Assembly (NCBI GenBank): GCA_902797195.1
Contig: CADBRY010000243.1
Coordinates: 1-11,616 of the forward strand
Length of the DNA stretch: 11,616 bases
Origin: an uncultured Eubacteriales bacterium
Lineage (GTDB): Bacteria; Bacillota; Clostridia; Peptostreptococcales; Anaerovoracaceae
Direction of reading: 5' to 3'
Of this stretch, positions 1 to 11,616 are shown in pieces. The stretch's first letter is position 1; the number at the start of each line of letters is the position of its first letter. A model generated the notes under the pieces. That model did not search any database. It had not been told where the DNA came from and was given only the letters and a program-made list of their open reading frames with translations. The translations under genes and the position numbers were made by a program.

Positions 1-2251
1 ACGTCCTCCTGACTCCCTGACATCCTCGGGTAAGTCTGTCGATCTCGAATCTGTTGACTTTCTGCCCTCTCTCTTCAAAATACTTGGCCACATATCCATA
101 GGCGGTCTTGTCTTTGATGGTGCCGATGGTACCCGCCTTATATACGTTCTCCGGTCCAAATATTTCTTCCACGTATTTCTGAGCCGTACCCTGATATTCA
201 CCCGCAAAATTAAGGTCGATATCAGGTTCCTTGTTAGCTTCGAATCCAAGGAAGGTCTCAAAGGGAATATTGAATCCCTCCTTCAGATATTCCGTCCCGC
301 AGTTGGGACAGACTTTGTCGGGCATATCCACCCCGCAATCGTATTCTGTAATGTCACCCCACTCTATATTCTTGCACTTTGGACACAGGTAGTGAGGCGG
401 CAGCGGATTAACCTCGGTTATTCCCGACATGGTCGCGGCAAAAGACGAGCCCACCGATCCTCTGGATCCTACAAGGTATCCGTCGCTTAGTGATTTTTTT
501 ACCAGCATCTCTGCGGATCTGTACATGACCGCATAACCGTTGTCTATTATTGAATTTAATTCCTTGTCCAGTCTTTCGCGAATTTCCTCGGGAAGAGGAG
601 AACCGTACATTTCCGTGGATCTTTCTCTGCATGCCTGCCTGAGGGCTTCTTCGGCGCCTTCGATCTTGGGAGGGAATTTTCCTTCCGGCACAGGCATCAT
701 TTTCTCGATTTGATCGGCTATCAGATTTGTATTTTTGATAACTACTTCGTATGCTTTTTCCTCACCAAGATAGGCGAATTCATCCAGCATCTCCCGGGTG
801 GTCCTGAAGTACAGTCCCTCGTCGCCTTCGACATCTTTGTATCCCTGACCCGCCATGATGATCCTTCTGTAGATAGCTTCCTCCGCATCAAAATAGTGGG
901 CGTCGCAGGTAGCCACAACGGGCTTGCCGTACTCCTCACCCATCTGGACGATCTTCATGTTGAGAGCTTTAAGATCCTCTTCACCACGGATGTTGACTCC
1001 GTCGATGAGAAAACTGTTGTTTACCAGAGGCTGTATCTCAAGGTAATCGTAGAAGTCGGCCAGGAAAGCCAACTCATCCCGGTCCGCACCTCTTAAGATC
1101 GCCCTGAAGACTTCACCGGCTTCGCAGGCGGATCCGAGTATAAGTCCTTCCCTGTGCTTTTCAAGAAGGGATCTGGGTATCCTGGGCTTTTTGTAAAAAT
1201 AATTCAGGTGTGATTCCGATACCAGCCGGTAGAGGTTTTCAAGACCTTTTTTATTTTTTGCAAGGATGATTATGTGGTTGGTTCCCCTTGCCTTGTAATC
1301 GATAGTTCCGTCATCGGCTATGAGGCCCCTGTCGTCCAGAAGATATCCCTCGCAGCCGTAGATTATTTTTATGTCTTTTCCCGCATGTGAAGCGTCTGGA
1401 AATGCCTGCACAACTCCGTGGTCTGTTATTGCCACAGCCGGGTGTCCCCACTTTTCTGCCATCTTCACCAGATGACTGGCGTCGTTCATTCCGTCCATGG
1501 CGCTCATCTTGGTGTGTGCATGCAGCTCCACCCTCTTCTCGGGATAATCGTCCATTCTGCCTGCCACATCCATCTTCTCGATGGCCTTGCACATCACTAT
1601 GACAGTGTTGTCAAAATCATCCCACTGAGCATGGCCGTAGACCTTGATGGAATCTCCTTCTTTAAGAAGCTCGCTGACCTCATCCCATTTTTTATTGGGC
1701 ATAAAGGATTTGACCAGCAGACTGGTGCTCTTGTCCGTAACATATATGAGGGCCATCTTTCTGTTGGTCTTTGTGGTCTTGACATCCATGCGGAATATTT
1801 CACCCTCTACGAGCACGTTGCCGCTTTCGCTCTGGATGTCCACCATCGGGGTGGGCTCCGATCCCGCCGGGATCTTCCCCATGATCTTGTTGCCCTTTGC
1901 GGGAACGAATTTATTCCCCCTGTCTCCTCCGGCATGATACTTATCCTTACCTCCCCCTTCGGCTACGGTGGAGGCAGCGGAAGTCATCATTGACATGAGC
2001 TCTTCCTTGTTGATGGGATTGTCGTATTCCAGATCGATGTCTATCTGTCTGACGCCCTTCATGCTCTTGCAAAGTCTGCTTCTGAAATCCTCGATCTCTT
2101 CGGGAGAAAGGATCATGTTCGTGGTCATCCCAATAGAAAGGATCTTATTGTCCCTTGATATGGCAGCTGTTTTTACGTTTATGTCCAGATCCTCCGGACT
2201 GCAGTTCTTGTATTTGCTGAAATCGATCGAATGCCTGAGTATGTCTTTCAT
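1..2251 (-). CDS. polC: DNA polymerase III alpha subunit, PolC type (5' part; runs off the window), lacking the inserted exonuclease domain
   Basis: This is the replicative polymerase of Firmicutes. It starts with ATG at 2251 and is open for 750 codons to the window edge; the catalytic palm aspartates lie beyond it. Visible order: small N-terminal alpha/beta domain (about residues 1-85), Gly/Lys-rich linker (about 95-125), OB fold (about 130-232), PHP domain (about 240-470), then the start of the polymerase core with GSRGSVGSS at 595-603 and a zinc site C623/C626/C648/C651. PHP ligands H244, H246, D253, H278, E301, H348, C376, D450 and H452 are all present. In ordinary PolC a DEDD exonuclease of roughly 170-200 residues separates the GxEaxL strand from the PYHAxxL strand. 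Here only about 25 residues lie between E301 and H326, with no DxE, HNxxFD or HxxxxD motif. The frame is unbroken, so this is not a frameshift. The start overlaps the ispG stop as ATGA, with only a weak ribosome site. Confidence 0.96.
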   Translation of the reverse strand, partial: MKDILRHSIDFSKYKNCSPEDLDINVKTAAISRDNKILSIGMTTNMILSPEEIEDFRSRLCKSMKGVRQIDIDLEYDNPINKEELMSMMTSAASTVAEGGGKDKYHAGGDRGNKFVPAKGNKIMGKIPAGSEPTPMVDIQSESGNVLVEGEIFRMDVKTTKTNRKMALIYVTDKSTSLLVKSFMPNKKWDEVSELLKEGDSIKVYGHAQWDDFDNTVIVMCKAIEKMDVAGRMDDYPEKRVELHAHTKMSAMDGMNDASHLVKMAEKWGHPAVAITDHGVVQAFPDASHAGKDIKIIYGCEGYLLDDRGLIADDGTIDYKARGTNHIIILAKNKKGLENLYRLVSESHLNYFYKKPRIPRSLLEKHREGLILGSACEAGEVFRAILRGADRDELAFLADFYDYLEIQPLVNNSFLIDGVNIRGEEDLKALNMKIVQMGEEYGKPVVATCDAHYFDAEEAIYRRIIMAGQGYKDVEGDEGLYFRTTREMLDEFAYLGEEKAYEVVIKNTNLIADQIEKMMPVPEGKFPPKIEGAEEALRQACRERSTEMYGSPLPEEIRERLDKELNSIIDNGYAVMYRSAEMLVKKSLSDGYLVGSRGSVGSSFAATMSGITEVNPLPPHYLCPKCKNIEWGDITEYDCGVDMPDKVCPNCGTEYLKEGFNIPFETFLGFEANKEPDIDLNFAGEYQGTAQKYVEEIFGPENVYKAGTIGTIKDKTAYGYVAKYFEERGQKVNRFEIDRLTRGCQGVRRT

Positions 2252-3306
2252 AATCTATCTATAAGTCTCACTAATTCTTCCGGTATATTTTCTTCTTCTG
2301 TTTTTCCAACTATCTCCCCTGCGGCAAAGAGCACTCCCATGCCGTCTCCGCAGGCCACCCCCGCATCTGCGTCCCTGGCTTCTCCGGGACCGTTTACCGC
2401 GCAGCCCATAACGGCCAGCTTGAGGCTCCGTCCTTCTTCGATGTATTTTCTGTTCAGAGGGCTTATCTTCTCCTCGATCTTTGCGATCATCTTCTCCAGA
2501 TCCACCTTCGTCCTTCCGCAGGTGGGACAGGAAACGATCTCGATTCCCTCTTTTCGTATGTCCAGAACAGACAGCAGCTCTCTTGCAAAGGCAACTTCCT
2601 CCACGGGATCCGCTGTCAGGGATACCCTCATGGTGTCTCCTATGCCGTCAAGAAGCAGTGCGCCTATTCCTGCGGCGGACTTGATCTTTCCTCTGGATGC
2701 GGTTCCCGCTTCGGTGACGCCTATGTGGAGCGGGTAGTCACAGGTTTCGTGGACTATTCTGTAAGCCTCTGTATTCACCCTTACATTGGATGATTTCAGA
2801 GAGACAACTATATCGTCAAAGTCCATGTCCTCCAGGATCTTTACGCTCCTCATTGCGCTTTCCGCAAGTCCGGCCGCCGTGATCCCGCCTTCCTTTTTCA
2901 GTATATCTTTTTCAAGGGAGCCTGAGTTTACTCCCACCCGGATGGGGATCCCGGCTTTCTTTGCGGCGTCCACAACCTTCCTTACGTTCTCGGCCTCTCC
3001 GATATTCCCGGGATTTATGCGTATTTTATCCGCCCCCTGATTTATGGCTTCAAGAGCCAGCCGGTAGTCGAAGTGTATGTCGGCTACCATGGGCATCTCA
3101 CATTTTCTTTTTATTTTTCCAAAGGCAACGGCGGCCTCCATGTCAGGCACCGCAAGTCTCACTATCTGACAGCCTGCCTCTTCCAGCCTTCCGATCTGTT
3201 CCAGTGTTCTATTCACATCTGCGGCAGGTGTGTTCGTCATGGACTGGATAGATATGGGACTATCCCCTCCAATCAGGACTCCCCCGCAGTTCACCTGTTT
3301 TTTCAT
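2248..3306 (-). CDS. ispG: 4-hydroxy-3-methylbut-2-enyl diphosphate synthase (IspG/GcpE)
   Basis: This cytoplasmic iron-sulfur enzyme reductively converts MEcPP to HMBPP, the penultimate step of the MEP isoprenoid pathway. The 352-residue length fits the short bacterial form. The N-terminal TIM barrel shows SIQSMTNT (19-26), VADIHFDYRLA (74-84) and KIRINPGNIG (94-103). The C-terminal domain carries the [4Fe-4S] ligands C260 and C263 (SCPTCGRT), C302 (MGCAVNGPGEA) and E309. The gene starts 50 nt after the rseP stop; the ATG at 3306 gives the conserved N-terminus, although the ribosome site before it is weak. Its stop overlaps the polC start by four bases, which suggests coupled translation. 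It acts in the same pathway as dxr two genes upstream. Confidence 0.97.
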   Translation of the reverse strand: MKKQVNCGGVLIGGDSPISIQSMTNTPAADVNRTLEQIGRLEEAGCQIVRLAVPDMEAAVAFGKIKRKCEMPMVADIHFDYRLALEAINQGADKIRINPGNIGEAENVRKVVDAAKKAGIPIRVGVNSGSLEKDILKKEGGITAAGLAESAMRSVKILEDMDFDDIVVSLKSSNVRVNTEAYRIVHETCDYPLHIGVTEAGTASRGKIKSAAGIGALLLDGIGDTMRVSLTADPVEEVAFARELLSVLDIRKEGIEIVSCPTCGRTKVDLEKMIAKIEEKISPLNRKYIEEGRSLKLAVMGCAVNGPGEARDADAGVACGDGMGVLFAAGEIVGKTEEENIPEELVRLIDRL

Positions 3307-8886: not shown

Positions 8887-9639
8887 TTAGCGCGAACCGA
8901 TTCTCCTGGTTATGACCGAGGCTGCATATGCGGCGCCGAATCCGTTGTCGATATTGACCACTGTGACTCCGTTGGCACAGCTGTTGAGCATAGAAAGAAG
9001 AGATGCAAGGCCTTCGAAACTGGAGCCGTACCCCACGCTTGTGGGAACTGCGATCACGGGGATGTCCACAAGTCCTCCCACTACGCTTGCAAGGGCGCCT
9101 TCCATGCCTGCGATCACTATGATCACATGGGCAGAGCGTATCTCATCTATTTTATCGAAAAGTCTGTGGATTCCCGCCACGCCAACATCATATATGCGAC
9201 TTACTGTGTTTCCCAGAAGCTCTGCGGTCACGGCAGCTTCTTCTGCCACAGGTATATCGGCGGTTCCTGCGGTCACGACAGCGATCCTTCCGCTGCTGAC
9301 TTCTTCCGGAGATTTTACGGCTATTATGCGGGCAGTCTCAAAATATTCTGCTTGAGGCACTCCTTCCTTTACTGTTTCATAGTCCTTGCGGGTGGCTCTG
9401 GTGGCGAATATGGTCCTGCCCCCTGTCAGCTCCCGGAATATATCTCTGATCTGCTGGGGAGTTTTTCCCTGGCAGTAGATCACTTCGGGGAATCCCGTCC
9501 TCATGGTCCTGTGATTGTCCACGTTTGCAAATCCAATGTCTCTGTAGGGAAGATCCCTCAGGCTTTCCATTGCCTTTGCAGCGGATATCTCACCCTTCTC
9601 AAGTCTGTCCAAAACCTCTTCTATGTGTTCTTCCATCAT
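8887..9639 (-). CDS. larB: LarB, nickel-pincer nucleotide cofactor biosynthesis carboxylase/hydrolase
   Basis: LarB carboxylates nicotinic acid adenine dinucleotide on the pyridine ring and releases AMP, the first step toward the nickel-pincer nucleotide cofactor of lactate racemase and related enzymes. The 250 residues comprise an N-terminal family domain (1-115, including DIGFANVDNHR and GFPEVIYCQGKT) and a PurE-like domain (118-245). The PurE-like domain shows TAGTADIPVAEEA, VAGIHRL, AGMEGALASVVGGL, PTSVGYGSSFEG and NIDNGFGAAYAA. C221 in LNSCANG is the position of the cysteine known to form a transient pyridine adduct in LarB. A GAGGT ribosome site (9653-9649) precedes the ATG at 9639 by 9 nt, and the ATG overlaps the barstar stop as ATGA. 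LarC and LarE are not in the window. PurE is excluded by length and by C221. Confidence 0.94.
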   Translation of the reverse strand: MMEEHIEEVLDRLEKGEISAAKAMESLRDLPYRDIGFANVDNHRTMRTGFPEVIYCQGKTPQQIRDIFRELTGGRTIFATRATRKDYETVKEGVPQAEYFETARIIAVKSPEEVSSGRIAVVTAGTADIPVAEEAAVTAELLGNTVSRIYDVGVAGIHRLFDKIDEIRSAHVIIVIAGMEGALASVVGGLVDIPVIAVPTSVGYGSSFEGLASLLSMLNSCANGVTVVNIDNGFGAAYAASVITRRIGSR

Positions 9640-9896
9640 AAGATAATCACCTCAAGAAGAGGGTTGTCTTCCTGTGCGTCGATGCACATGGTTTTGAACC
9701 TGTCCACGTAGGCGGTCATATCCTGATCCACGTTGCCTGAGCCTTTGACGATTATGCGACCCTTCATCTCCGAAAAGGCGTCCGCCAGAGCATCAAGGTT
9801 CTCTCCAAAGTATTCGGGCAGAGATATCCCCGCCCTGACTCTTTCATAGAATCCTTCCACAGTGGTAATTCCATTTAGATCGATTTCATAAATCAT
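9636..9896 (-). CDS. Barstar-family ribonuclease inhibitor
   Basis: This 86-residue cytoplasmic protein matches barstar, which blocks barnase by plugging its active site. The hallmark LPEYFGENLDALADAF lies at 26-41. Y29, D35, D39 and E76 fall at the same numbers as the known contact residues of Bacillus barstar, while W38 of that protein is Ala38 here. The C-terminal LLEVIIL is the usual final strand. The gene follows the ribonuclease gene by 15 nt and overlaps larB by four bases, and only a weak GGGA ribosome site precedes the ATG. Adjacent to a secreted or membrane-exposed ribonuclease, its likely job is to protect the cell from enzyme that stays or folds in the cytoplasm. Confidence 0.93.
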   Translation of the reverse strand: MIYEIDLNGITTVEGFYERVRAGISLPEYFGENLDALADAFSEMKGRIIVKGSGNVDQDMTAYVDRFKTMCIDAQEDNPLLEVIIL

Positions 9897-9911: not shown

Positions 9912-10433
9912 CTATCTGTCGCAGACCTTCTCGAAGGTCCTGTAATGGTCGTGAGTGTAGTAGATCTCTTCATCGGAAAACACAAGCCGTCTGGAGCCCC
10001 GGTCCTTCCATCCCAGGGTGTCTATGTCGCACTCTGTGTACCTGCCCTCGGGAAGTTTTCCTTCGTAGTTTCCGAATCTGTCTCCCCCTATGCACATGCC
10101 CGGGGCGTATTGTTCCACGGAGCCTCCGTCCCATCCAAGGGCTCTCGCCTCTTTTTTGGTTATGTAGTTGTCGGGGAGTCTTCCAAAGGCAACGATATAG
10201 GCCGCCACATCCTCCTTGGAATCGTAGCTGCCGCCCTCTTTTACATCGCCCTCACGGTACTTATCTTCATCCTGAGAAGAGGTCTGCACCGTCTCCGTCC
10301 CTGCCGTGGTGCTCTGCTGATCACTGTCGGTTTTTTTGCCGCAGCCTGTGAACACCACCGCCAGACATATTAACAGGAGGATCATCCATGTGGCGATCCT
10401 CCGTCCTTTTTGTGTGTGATACTTAGTCATCAT
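9912..10433 (-). CDS. Barnase-family ribonuclease, predicted lipoprotein
   Basis: This is a guanyl-type endoribonuclease of the barnase family, here apparently tethered to the outside of the membrane. Starting at ATG 10433 it has 173 residues: a basic n-region (KYHTQKGRR), a hydrophobic core, and a lipobox-like FTGC with Cys31. A polar Ser/Thr/Gln/Glu-rich linker runs to about residue 72, then a barnase domain (about 74-173) with DVAAY, RLPDNYITKKEARALGW, IGGDRFGN, EGKLPEGRYTECDID and THDHYRTFEK. The catalytic triad of barnase (E73, R87, H102) aligns with E134, R149 and H163, so activity is expected. K27 is Arg85 and R59 is Tyr123. The open frame extends further upstream but inside putP, so the start is taken at the tandem ATGATG overlapping the putP stop (10430 is equally possible). 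Phe at -3 of the lipobox is atypical. Confidence 0.9.
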   Translation of the reverse strand: MMTKYHTQKGRRIATWMILLLICLAVVFTGCGKKTDSDQQSTTAGTETVQTSSQDEDKYREGDVKEGGSYDSKEDVAAYIVAFGRLPDNYITKKEARALGWDGGSVEQYAPGMCIGGDRFGNYEGKLPEGRYTECDIDTLGWKDRGSRRLVFSDEEIYYTHDHYRTFEKVCDR

Positions 10434-11616
10434 TTGATTCATCCGTTGCTGCATCGTATATATCCGTAACGGCCTTTGAAGGCTCCTTCGTTGCCTTTGT
10501 AACAACGATACCAACAATAGCGCCTGCGATAAACCCGGGAATGATCTCGTAAACTCCCGTCGATGCGCAGAAGATGAGCCAGAATATATCCACCGCGGCT
10601 CCCGCCACCACGCCGGCGCATGCTCCCGGGTAGTTGAACCTTCTCCAGAAGAGAGAGAGCAGTATTGTGGGACCGAATGCCGCTCCGAAAACGCCCCAGG
10701 CATTCTCAACCAGATTCATGATGGCCTGGGCTCCTGAACCCTTTGAAGATGCGATCATGAACCCAACTATGGCTATTATGATGACCGCGATACGACCCAC
10801 GTAGAGGACTTCCTTATCCCCGGCATCCTTTCTTATGATGGGCTTATACAGGTCTGAAGTAAATGAACTGGACGCCACAAGCAGCTGGGAATCTGCCGTG
10901 GAAACCGATGCAGCCATTATAGCCGCAAGAAGGAATCCGGAAATGACTGGCGGGAAGAATTTTCTCGCCATAGCTATGAACACGGTTTTCTGGGCTCCAA
11001 TGGTAAGAAGCTCTTCTCCCACGATCATCCTGGCCTGATATGCCATGAGGCAGGCAGCTCCAATGGAGAGCACTACCCATACTATTGCGATCACCGAGGA
11101 CTTCTTGACCATGGAGGGTTTTTCTATGGACATGAATCTGACTATGATATGGGGCATTCCGAAGTATCCCAGGCCCCATCCCAGACCGGAAATCACATCC
11201 TGCCAGCTTGCGCTGAACAGTCCCGTTCCGAAGTCACATGAGACAACTTCTCCCGTGGCGGGGTCGGTATATTCATACACATTGGAAAGAAGGCCGGTAT
11301 CCAGATCATATGTGGCTGCCACGATGATGGGGATAGCCAGCAGCGCCACGAGCATGAGGATGCCCTGGAAGAAATCCGTCCAGCAGACTGCTTTGAATCC
11401 GCCGAGGAAGGTGTATCCGATTATGATCAGTGCGAATATTATCATTGCCGTTCTTTCGCCGATACCCGGGAAAAGCATGGTAAACACCGATGTTCCCGCA
11501 ACGAATGCGGAGGAAACATAAATGGTGAAGGCAATGAGAAATATCAACGCACAGATGATCTGCAGAGTCTTGTTGTCTGTGGCAAATCTTCTGGTAAGAT
11601 ACTGGGGAACGGTTAT
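10423..11616 (-). CDS. putP: Sodium/solute symporter, PutP (sodium/proline) type, 5' end missing
   Basis: This is a member of the SSS family that imports a solute, by homology proline, with sodium. The visible 397 codons are the C-terminal four fifths; about 100 residues lie beyond the window, so the apparent TTG start at 11547 is not real and the frame stays open to 11616. PutP-like landmarks in order are TVPQYLTRRF, YTFLGGFKAVCWTDFFQG, GWGLGYFGMPHIIVRFM, SVSTADSQLLVASS followed by SDLYK (the sodium/substrate helix region), AWGVFGAAFGPTILLSLFW and YEIIPGFIAGAIVG. A charged tail rich in Asp ends the protein. The stop overlaps the ribonuclease start by 11 nt. Substrate specificity within SSS cannot be proved from sequence alone. 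Confidence 0.92.
   Translation of the reverse strand: MTVPQYLTRRFATDNKTLQIICALIFLIAFTIYVSSAFVAGTSVFTMLFPGIGERTAMIIFALIIIGYTFLGGFKAVCWTDFFQGILMLVALLAIPIIVAATYDLDTGLLSNVYEYTDPATGEVVSCDFGTGLFSASWQDVISGLGWGLGYFGMPHIIVRFMSIEKPSMVKKSSVIAIVWVVLSIGAACLMAYQARMIVGEELLTIGAQKTVFIAMARKFFPPVISGFLLAAIMAASVSTADSQLLVASSSFTSDLYKPIIRKDAGDKEVLYVGRIAVIIIAIVGFMIASSKGSGAQAIMNLVENAWGVFGAAFGPTILLSLFWRRFNYPGACAGVVAGAAVDIFWLIFCASTGVYEIIPGFIAGAIVGIVVTKATKEPSKAVTDIYDAATDESNDD

Follow-up and report, generated by a model that had tools for sequence, protein, structure and literature searches.

A PolC-type DNA polymerase III without the DEDD exonuclease and with all nine PHP metal ligands, and its relatives in Clostridia

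The 3'-5' exonuclease of PolC is the textbook proofreader of Firmicutes, and new Gram-positive antibiotics are directed at PolC. In C-family polymerases the PHP domain can itself act as a 3'-5' exonuclease that depends on Zn and has nine ligands, and it is the proofreader in Mycobacterium tuberculosis DnaE1; the PolC DEDD domain is described as inserted in a PHP loop, and as one of at least three replacements of the PHP activity (PMC5636811). PolC proteins without the exonuclease were reported by Timinskas et al. (PMC3919608), where they made up 6% of PolC overall and 16% in the PolC + DnaE1 system and were found in Clostridia, in Negativicutes and as one extra copy in Thermotogae; for the PolC + DnaE1 system that paper also lists a conserved PHP metal site in PolC. 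An earlier note on the DNA examined here could not say whether such a variant had been catalogued; it had been, and exonuclease-less PolC as such has been known since 2013. Polymerisation is fast (kpol 330 per s) in an engineered form, S. aureus PolC stripped of its N-terminus and exonuclease, and PDB entry 3F2B is described as Gka-PolC-dN-dExo, without the N-terminal and exonuclease domains (PMC3656037). Loss of the whole PolC is known from single Firmicutes, namely Pelotomaculum and Desulforudis (PMC3274465).

The window, meaning the whole stretch of 11616 nt that was analysed, carries polC on the reverse strand at positions 2..2251, an open frame with its ATG at 2251 that encodes the first 750 residues and runs off the edge of the window and contig. 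The 3' part of the gene was found on another contig of this genome, C94, where it encodes 369 aa ending in ETAQISMFG, in which QISMF is presumably the clamp motif, and is followed by frames read as rimP, nusA, ylxR and infB. The ispG gene (2248..3306, reverse strand), named by reading and identified in relatives using TIGR00612, is directly upstream of polC with a 4-base overlap, and further upstream are frames named from their translations as rseP, dxr, cdsA and uppS. Elsewhere on the reverse strand of the window, an adjacent pair of frames (9636-9896 and 9912-10709) encodes a barnase-type ribonuclease (PF00545) and a barstar-type inhibitor (PF01337), with a stretch that reads like a lipoprotein signal upstream of the ribonuclease, and the frame at 8887-9639 encodes an AIR carboxylase-like protein (PF00731) that, by reading, is probably of the LarB type.

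The window PolC begins with an NI-like N-terminal domain (residues 1-90; 1982..2251, reverse strand as for all domains of this protein), in which a weak Pfam NI match at residues 25-73 falls below the cut-off, followed by an OB domain detected by Pfam (residues 146-224; 1580..1816). The first part of the PHP domain (residues 240-303; 1343..1534; ligands H244, H246, D253, H278 and E301) is separated from the second (residues 326-452; 896..1276; ligands H326, C376, D450 and H452) by a linker of 24 residues (302-325; 1277..1348), a scar at the usual site of the DEDD exonuclease in PolC. The polymerase core with the PDIDLNF motif (2..646) is cut by the contig edge. Pfam matched the PHP domain as one unbroken segment (242-397) and also the polymerase domain, and no RNase_T match was found in the 750 residues up to E = 1, nor any exonuclease match in the part on C94. 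The best NCBIfam models were NF001688 (804 bits) and TIGR01405 (728 bits), whose curated cut-offs of 873 and 1043 are both above the score of this protein, cut at 750 aa; full-length exonuclease-less relatives exceed the TIGR01405 cut-off (for example G201, at 1270 bits). The sequence match, the OB domain preceding PHP, the PDIDLNF motif and the C-terminal motif identify the window protein as a PolC-type DNA polymerase III, from which the PHP-inserted DEDD exonuclease, typical though not universal for PolC, is missing.

The window PolC does not have the NII half of the N-terminus that longer relatives carry, and shortening of the PolC N-terminus has occurred several times in the family, in exonuclease-bearing and exonuclease-less members alike. 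An HhH domain was found in relative L004 and not in the cut window protein. The AlphaFold model was of moderate quality (pLDDT 78, pTM 0.56, with pLDDT under 50 at residues 247-254, which hold ligand D253), had 3F2B as its top PDB match, and adds little beyond the indication that residues 1-90 form one small N-terminal domain.

In the window, and in every aligned locus of the genus, E301 and H326 are separated by 24 residues; other exonuclease-less PolC have 13-25 residues at this place (57 in G321), and exonuclease-bearing PolC have 208-219. The flanks of the scar are those of exonuclease-bearing members of the family (...EGYLLDD... before and ...IDYK..TNHII.. after). The closest sequence with a solved structure, 3F2B, a Geobacillus PolC without the N-terminus and exonuclease, is colinear with window residues 138-750, while the alignment to the 1474-residue chain 9qpc is broken in two, query 126-353 pairing with chain 246-475 and query 318-750 with chain 633-1067, and a stretch of about 160 residues lies between the two parts. 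The Pfam results, these two alignments and the 24-residue junction confirm the earlier note's observation of a PolC without the DEDD exonuclease. The 57-residue linker of the G321 protein (L139) is a low-complexity stretch rich in Ala, Lys and Ser; it was considered as an exonuclease remnant and rejected, as it has no exonuclease motif by eye.

The first sample comprised 120 relatives, including 49 genomes of the genus (the source genome counted) and 47 from other families of the order. The window PolC was matched through the junction in 44 of the 49, and only from residue 273-328 on in 45 of the 47, with an RNase_T match inside the PolC frame again in 45 of the 47 (the frame of G080 is cut by a contig end). 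The survey was extended to 148 genomes of the family, which is probably Anaerovoracaceae, with PolC called at E <= 1e-60. PolC was found in 111, and lacked the exonuclease in 93 and retained it in 16, with two left unassigned (G070 and G121). The 93 include 91 in which a match starts just past the exonuclease (model position 368-378), and G065 and G067, in which it spans the junction; alignment was used instead of match position to check 50 exonuclease-less and 16 exonuclease-bearing loci. A PolC split in two was rejected for G065, G067 and G070, because the pieces run up to the ends of contigs (G067 and G070) or are two overlapping frames on one short contig (G065). Among the database matches listed (the best 120 per search, 335 distinct proteins in all, a top slice and no census), proteins without PF00929 show the same junction, and a Lentihominibacter PolC (P0058) is 71% identical to that of genus member G003; the family assignment follows from this named relative. 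A scan of genome contigs gave two loci. The clean loss of a domain from an intact replicase is thereby borne out as common to independent genomes.

One PolC and one DnaE1 were found in the source genome, which is 78% complete, and no second polC. A search of the same genome for PF00929 gave no match at E <= 0.001, and domain fission with a DnaQ-like protein acting in trans was set aside, as this 78% complete genome held no candidate. No standalone DnaQ-like protein (PF00929) was found in 37 of the 49 genus genomes. Within the family, 72 of the 95 genomes with exonuclease-less or unassigned PolC had no RNase_T match and 23 had one elsewhere, and there was none in 25 of the 37 genomes without PolC. 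Among 37 exonuclease-less genomes from other Clostridia families, 23 had no RNase_T match, the single-contig genome G425 included, and 14 had one. MutS1 was found in 142 of the 148 family genomes; a MutS search of the 78% complete source genome found none.

All nine PHP ligands (HHDHEHCDH) are kept in the window PolC. They are likewise intact in all 88 exonuclease-less PolC loci, and in 62 of 67 exonuclease-bearing loci, the other five being degraded (families f2 and f10); 5 of 160 loci were excluded from this count as fragments or duplicates. Among the best 120 database proteins listed, the ligand pattern is present in 119 and P0119 has one substitution, and by alignment the ligands are present in 132 of the 133 exonuclease-less proteins among the matches listed, the remaining one being partial. 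The earlier note's 'loss of cis proofreading' is unsupported as stated and too strong, because none of the nine ligands is missing from the PHP nuclease site of this polypeptide. The PHP site of DnaE1 is intact in 97 of 101 sequences; of the other four, one has an unread residue, two start inside the gene, and L191 is unaligned there. The DnaE1 of the source genome is one of the two, its PHP part being off the contig found.

The contrast between a PHP site intact in every exonuclease-less PolC locus and decayed in some exonuclease-bearing ones is suggestive only. The five decayed sites represent three events on the tree, all on exonuclease-bearing branches, and the chance that three decays would all miss the exonuclease-less branches is p 0.135. 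Statistical compensation between loss of the exonuclease and upkeep of PHP is not significant because PHP decay amounts to only these three events. The decayed proteins themselves (L156, L158, L159, L160 and L161, in order-level relatives G084, G105, G110, G112 and G118) have kept the exonuclease and are thus the reverse of the window PolC.

The reading we favour, with a probability of about 0.7, is that the window gene encodes a genuine PolC replicase from which the DEDD domain was precisely deleted, leaving PHP sites as the remaining proofreaders. The 3'-5' exonuclease would have been deleted precisely inside PHP in an ancestor of most of the window's family, with a short linker closing the PHP domain, an arrangement shared with DnaE-type polymerases. 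The exonuclease-less PolC would then have continued as replicase, with proofreading of 3' ends shifting to its own intact PHP metal site and to that of the partner DnaE1, and MutS mismatch repair would back up this PHP proofreading. The sequences show the deletion, its spread, the intact PHP ligands and, for most of these genomes, no other RNase_T match; we infer that the PHP site of exonuclease-less PolC is probably catalytically active and that fidelity would be kept. The fast polymerisation of the engineered S. aureus protein, the PHP proofreading of mycobacterial DnaE1 and the strand skews described below speak for this reading, whereas the substituted ligand of P0119, the RNase_T matches in 23 of 95 family genomes and in 14 of 37 genomes of other families, the negative MutS search in the 78% complete source genome and the low pLDDT around D253 speak against it.

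The history of the loss was examined on a tree of 152 PolC rows, built from the second half of PHP and the part of the polymerase present in the window, with exonuclease columns excluded and 8 of 160 rows left out. By parsimony the fewest changes of exonuclease state in this Clostridia sample was seven, and the exonuclease thus appears to have been lost about seven times in the sampled Clostridia, on a quick tree with weak nodes (supports of 0, 28, 41, 45, 53, 56 and 61 among them). Outside the window's family, the exonuclease-less groups are f17, f61, f34 with f65, one member of f38, and one mixed group (f22, f25, f62, f74, f76 and f79 together with the extra copy in G343). Group f17 includes Thermoclostridium stercorarium, whose PolC (P0121, of the same architecture) shows 100% identity to the query from G425 across 99% of its length. 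The PolC of Acetivibrio, an exonuclease-bearing relative of T. stercorarium, carries PF00929. G343 (f28) has a normal exonuclease-bearing PolC and a second, exonuclease-less PolC-like frame of 756 aa (L136 and L137). In the window's family the free tree gave two exonuclease-less groups needing two changes. Two losses are not required there, and one is enough, because a tree with the 48 exonuclease-less family rows as one clade was 10.2 log units better and was not rejected (p 0.68).

On a DnaE1 tree of 100 sequences (L191 left out; some inner nodes weak), the exonuclease-bearing members of the family are basal, exonuclease-less members come next and PolC-less genomes lie inside the exonuclease-less part, with four changes for PolC presence and two for the exonuclease. 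No PolC match was found in 37 of the 148 family genomes, including 11 of the 84 good ones (>= 90% complete and <= 5% contaminated), one of which (G062) also has no DnaE1 match. PolC was missing from both sampled genomes in 11 genera. In four of these (g13, g15, g109 and g120) its absence from one genome may be an assembly gap, because that genome has no DnaE1 match either. Some absences look like gaps, as genera g18, g19, g87 and g94 mix genomes with and without PolC, and G062, G172, G190 and G234 have a match to neither DnaE1 nor PolC. PolC appears to be gone entirely from several genera that branch within the exonuclease-less part of the family. Examples of PolC-less genomes are G132 (L286), G133, G141, G162, G206, G207, G211 and G220; DnaE1 was the only C-family polymerase found in such genomes, with two DnaE1 in G158. 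Frames resembling rimP and nusA come immediately after ispG in G132 (97% complete), and as rimP and nusA follow polC in the source genome, polC is therefore gone from the place it holds there. This arrangement was seen in one of the 16 PolC-less ispG loci read, the other 15 having different genes or a contig end after ispG (G158 has a rimP-like frame a few genes further along). The exonuclease-bearing G182 likewise has no polC after its ispG.

These absences bear on a rather unlikely alternative, that PolC is now the lesser polymerase and DnaE1 has taken over most synthesis, so that first the exonuclease and then the whole of PolC could be dispensed with and the exonuclease-less form is a step in decay. 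The PolC-less genomes (37 of 148, and 11 of 84 good ones), their position inside the exonuclease-less part of the DnaE1 tree, the gene order in G132 and the repeated shortening of the PolC N-terminal region would all fit such a decay. However, PolC retains its catalytic motif and its C-terminal clamp-type motif, and mean column identity across the window PolC and 51 exonuclease-less relatives is 73%. Strand composition in the exonuclease-less G165 also speaks against decay. Leading-strand purine asymmetry 'may warrant PolC', and PolC need not imply asymmetry (PMC4070872). The replication part of fourfold-site GC and AT skew had the same sign, the G+A pattern linked to PolC, in 7 of 7 regions in the exonuclease-less G165, which is PolC-like, in 2 of 4 in the exonuclease-less G155 (9 of 11 together) and in 8 of 9 in the exonuclease-bearing G182, and these three genomes gave the same counts with both gene finders. 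PolC-less genomes gave 16 of 20 with the cruder gene finder and 8 of 20 with a codon-model version, and this contrast is not leaned on because the result changes with the gene finder. With the cruder finder the two strands of many regions in GC-rich PolC-less genomes came out almost equal in gene content, which probably represents shadow frames. A decaying PolC and a PolC proofread by PHP sites are compatible and not exclusive.

It is similarly doubtful that the family's PolC is unproofread, its fidelity being lower and dependent on polymerase selectivity together with mismatch repair. The DEDD domain is gone, most of the genomes have no RNase_T match and MutS is widely kept, as this explanation would predict, but the upkeep of the PHP ligands in 88 of 88 exonuclease-less loci against decay in 5 of 67 exonuclease-bearing ones points the other way, though tree-wise this difference is not significant. 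An assembly or sequencing deletion in one MAG is extremely improbable even for a genome fragmented into 300 contigs, and is refuted by the relatives, because independent genomes carry exonuclease-less PolC too, the same junction being found in 44 of 49 genus genomes, in aligned relatives and in the listed database proteins without PF00929.

It is plausible, at about even odds, that Clostridia repeatedly discard the DEDD domain of PolC and that fidelity then reverts to the ancestral PHP, this being in the window's family the first step to DnaE1-only replication. If this is true, the series in the family from PolC with the exonuclease, to PolC without it, to no PolC would represent the passage from a two- to a one-polymerase fork, and a graded series within one family would make the evolution of two-polymerase forks testable. 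A family that keeps PolC, mostly without a DEDD match, would also be a direct test case for proofreading by the PolC PHP domain, and could show the mutation rate of a cell relying on PHP.

Searches of the open literature found nothing on PolC in Anaerovoracaceae or on the exonuclease of the stercorarium PolC, only PMC3919608 on PolC, Negativicutes, proofreading and exonuclease together, and no family-wide history or nesting of PolC loss within an exonuclease-less group. The window PolC fits the architecture described by Timinskas et al. (PMC3919608), with OB, an uninterrupted PHP and the rest of PolC kept, no Exo insertion, a DnaE1 partner, a place in Clostridia as read from named relatives and HhH in one relative, and differs in also having no NII half in its N-terminal region. 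The available text of that paper gives counts, without a family-level history or a link to later PolC loss. What is new here is that exonuclease-less PolC with an intact PHP site is the usual state of the window's family, that parsimony suggests about seven losses in the Clostridia sample with one or two in this family, that 72 of 95 family genomes with exonuclease-less or unassigned PolC and the single-contig G425, which carries the T. stercorarium PolC, have no RNase_T match, and that PolC-less sublineages appear to be nested among exonuclease-less ones. The engineered dN-dExo proteins from G. kaustophilus (3F2B) and S. aureus (PMC3656037) have nearly the same domain content as the window PolC. 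However, they are man-made; the window PolC has an extra small N-terminal domain and also keeps all nine PHP ligands, one of which is changed in G. kaustophilus PolC (PMC5636811). Mycobacterial DnaE1 (PMC5636811) shares with the window PolC the nine-ligand PHP site and a chain with no DEDD exonuclease, but is a DnaE1 with measured activity, and not a PolC.
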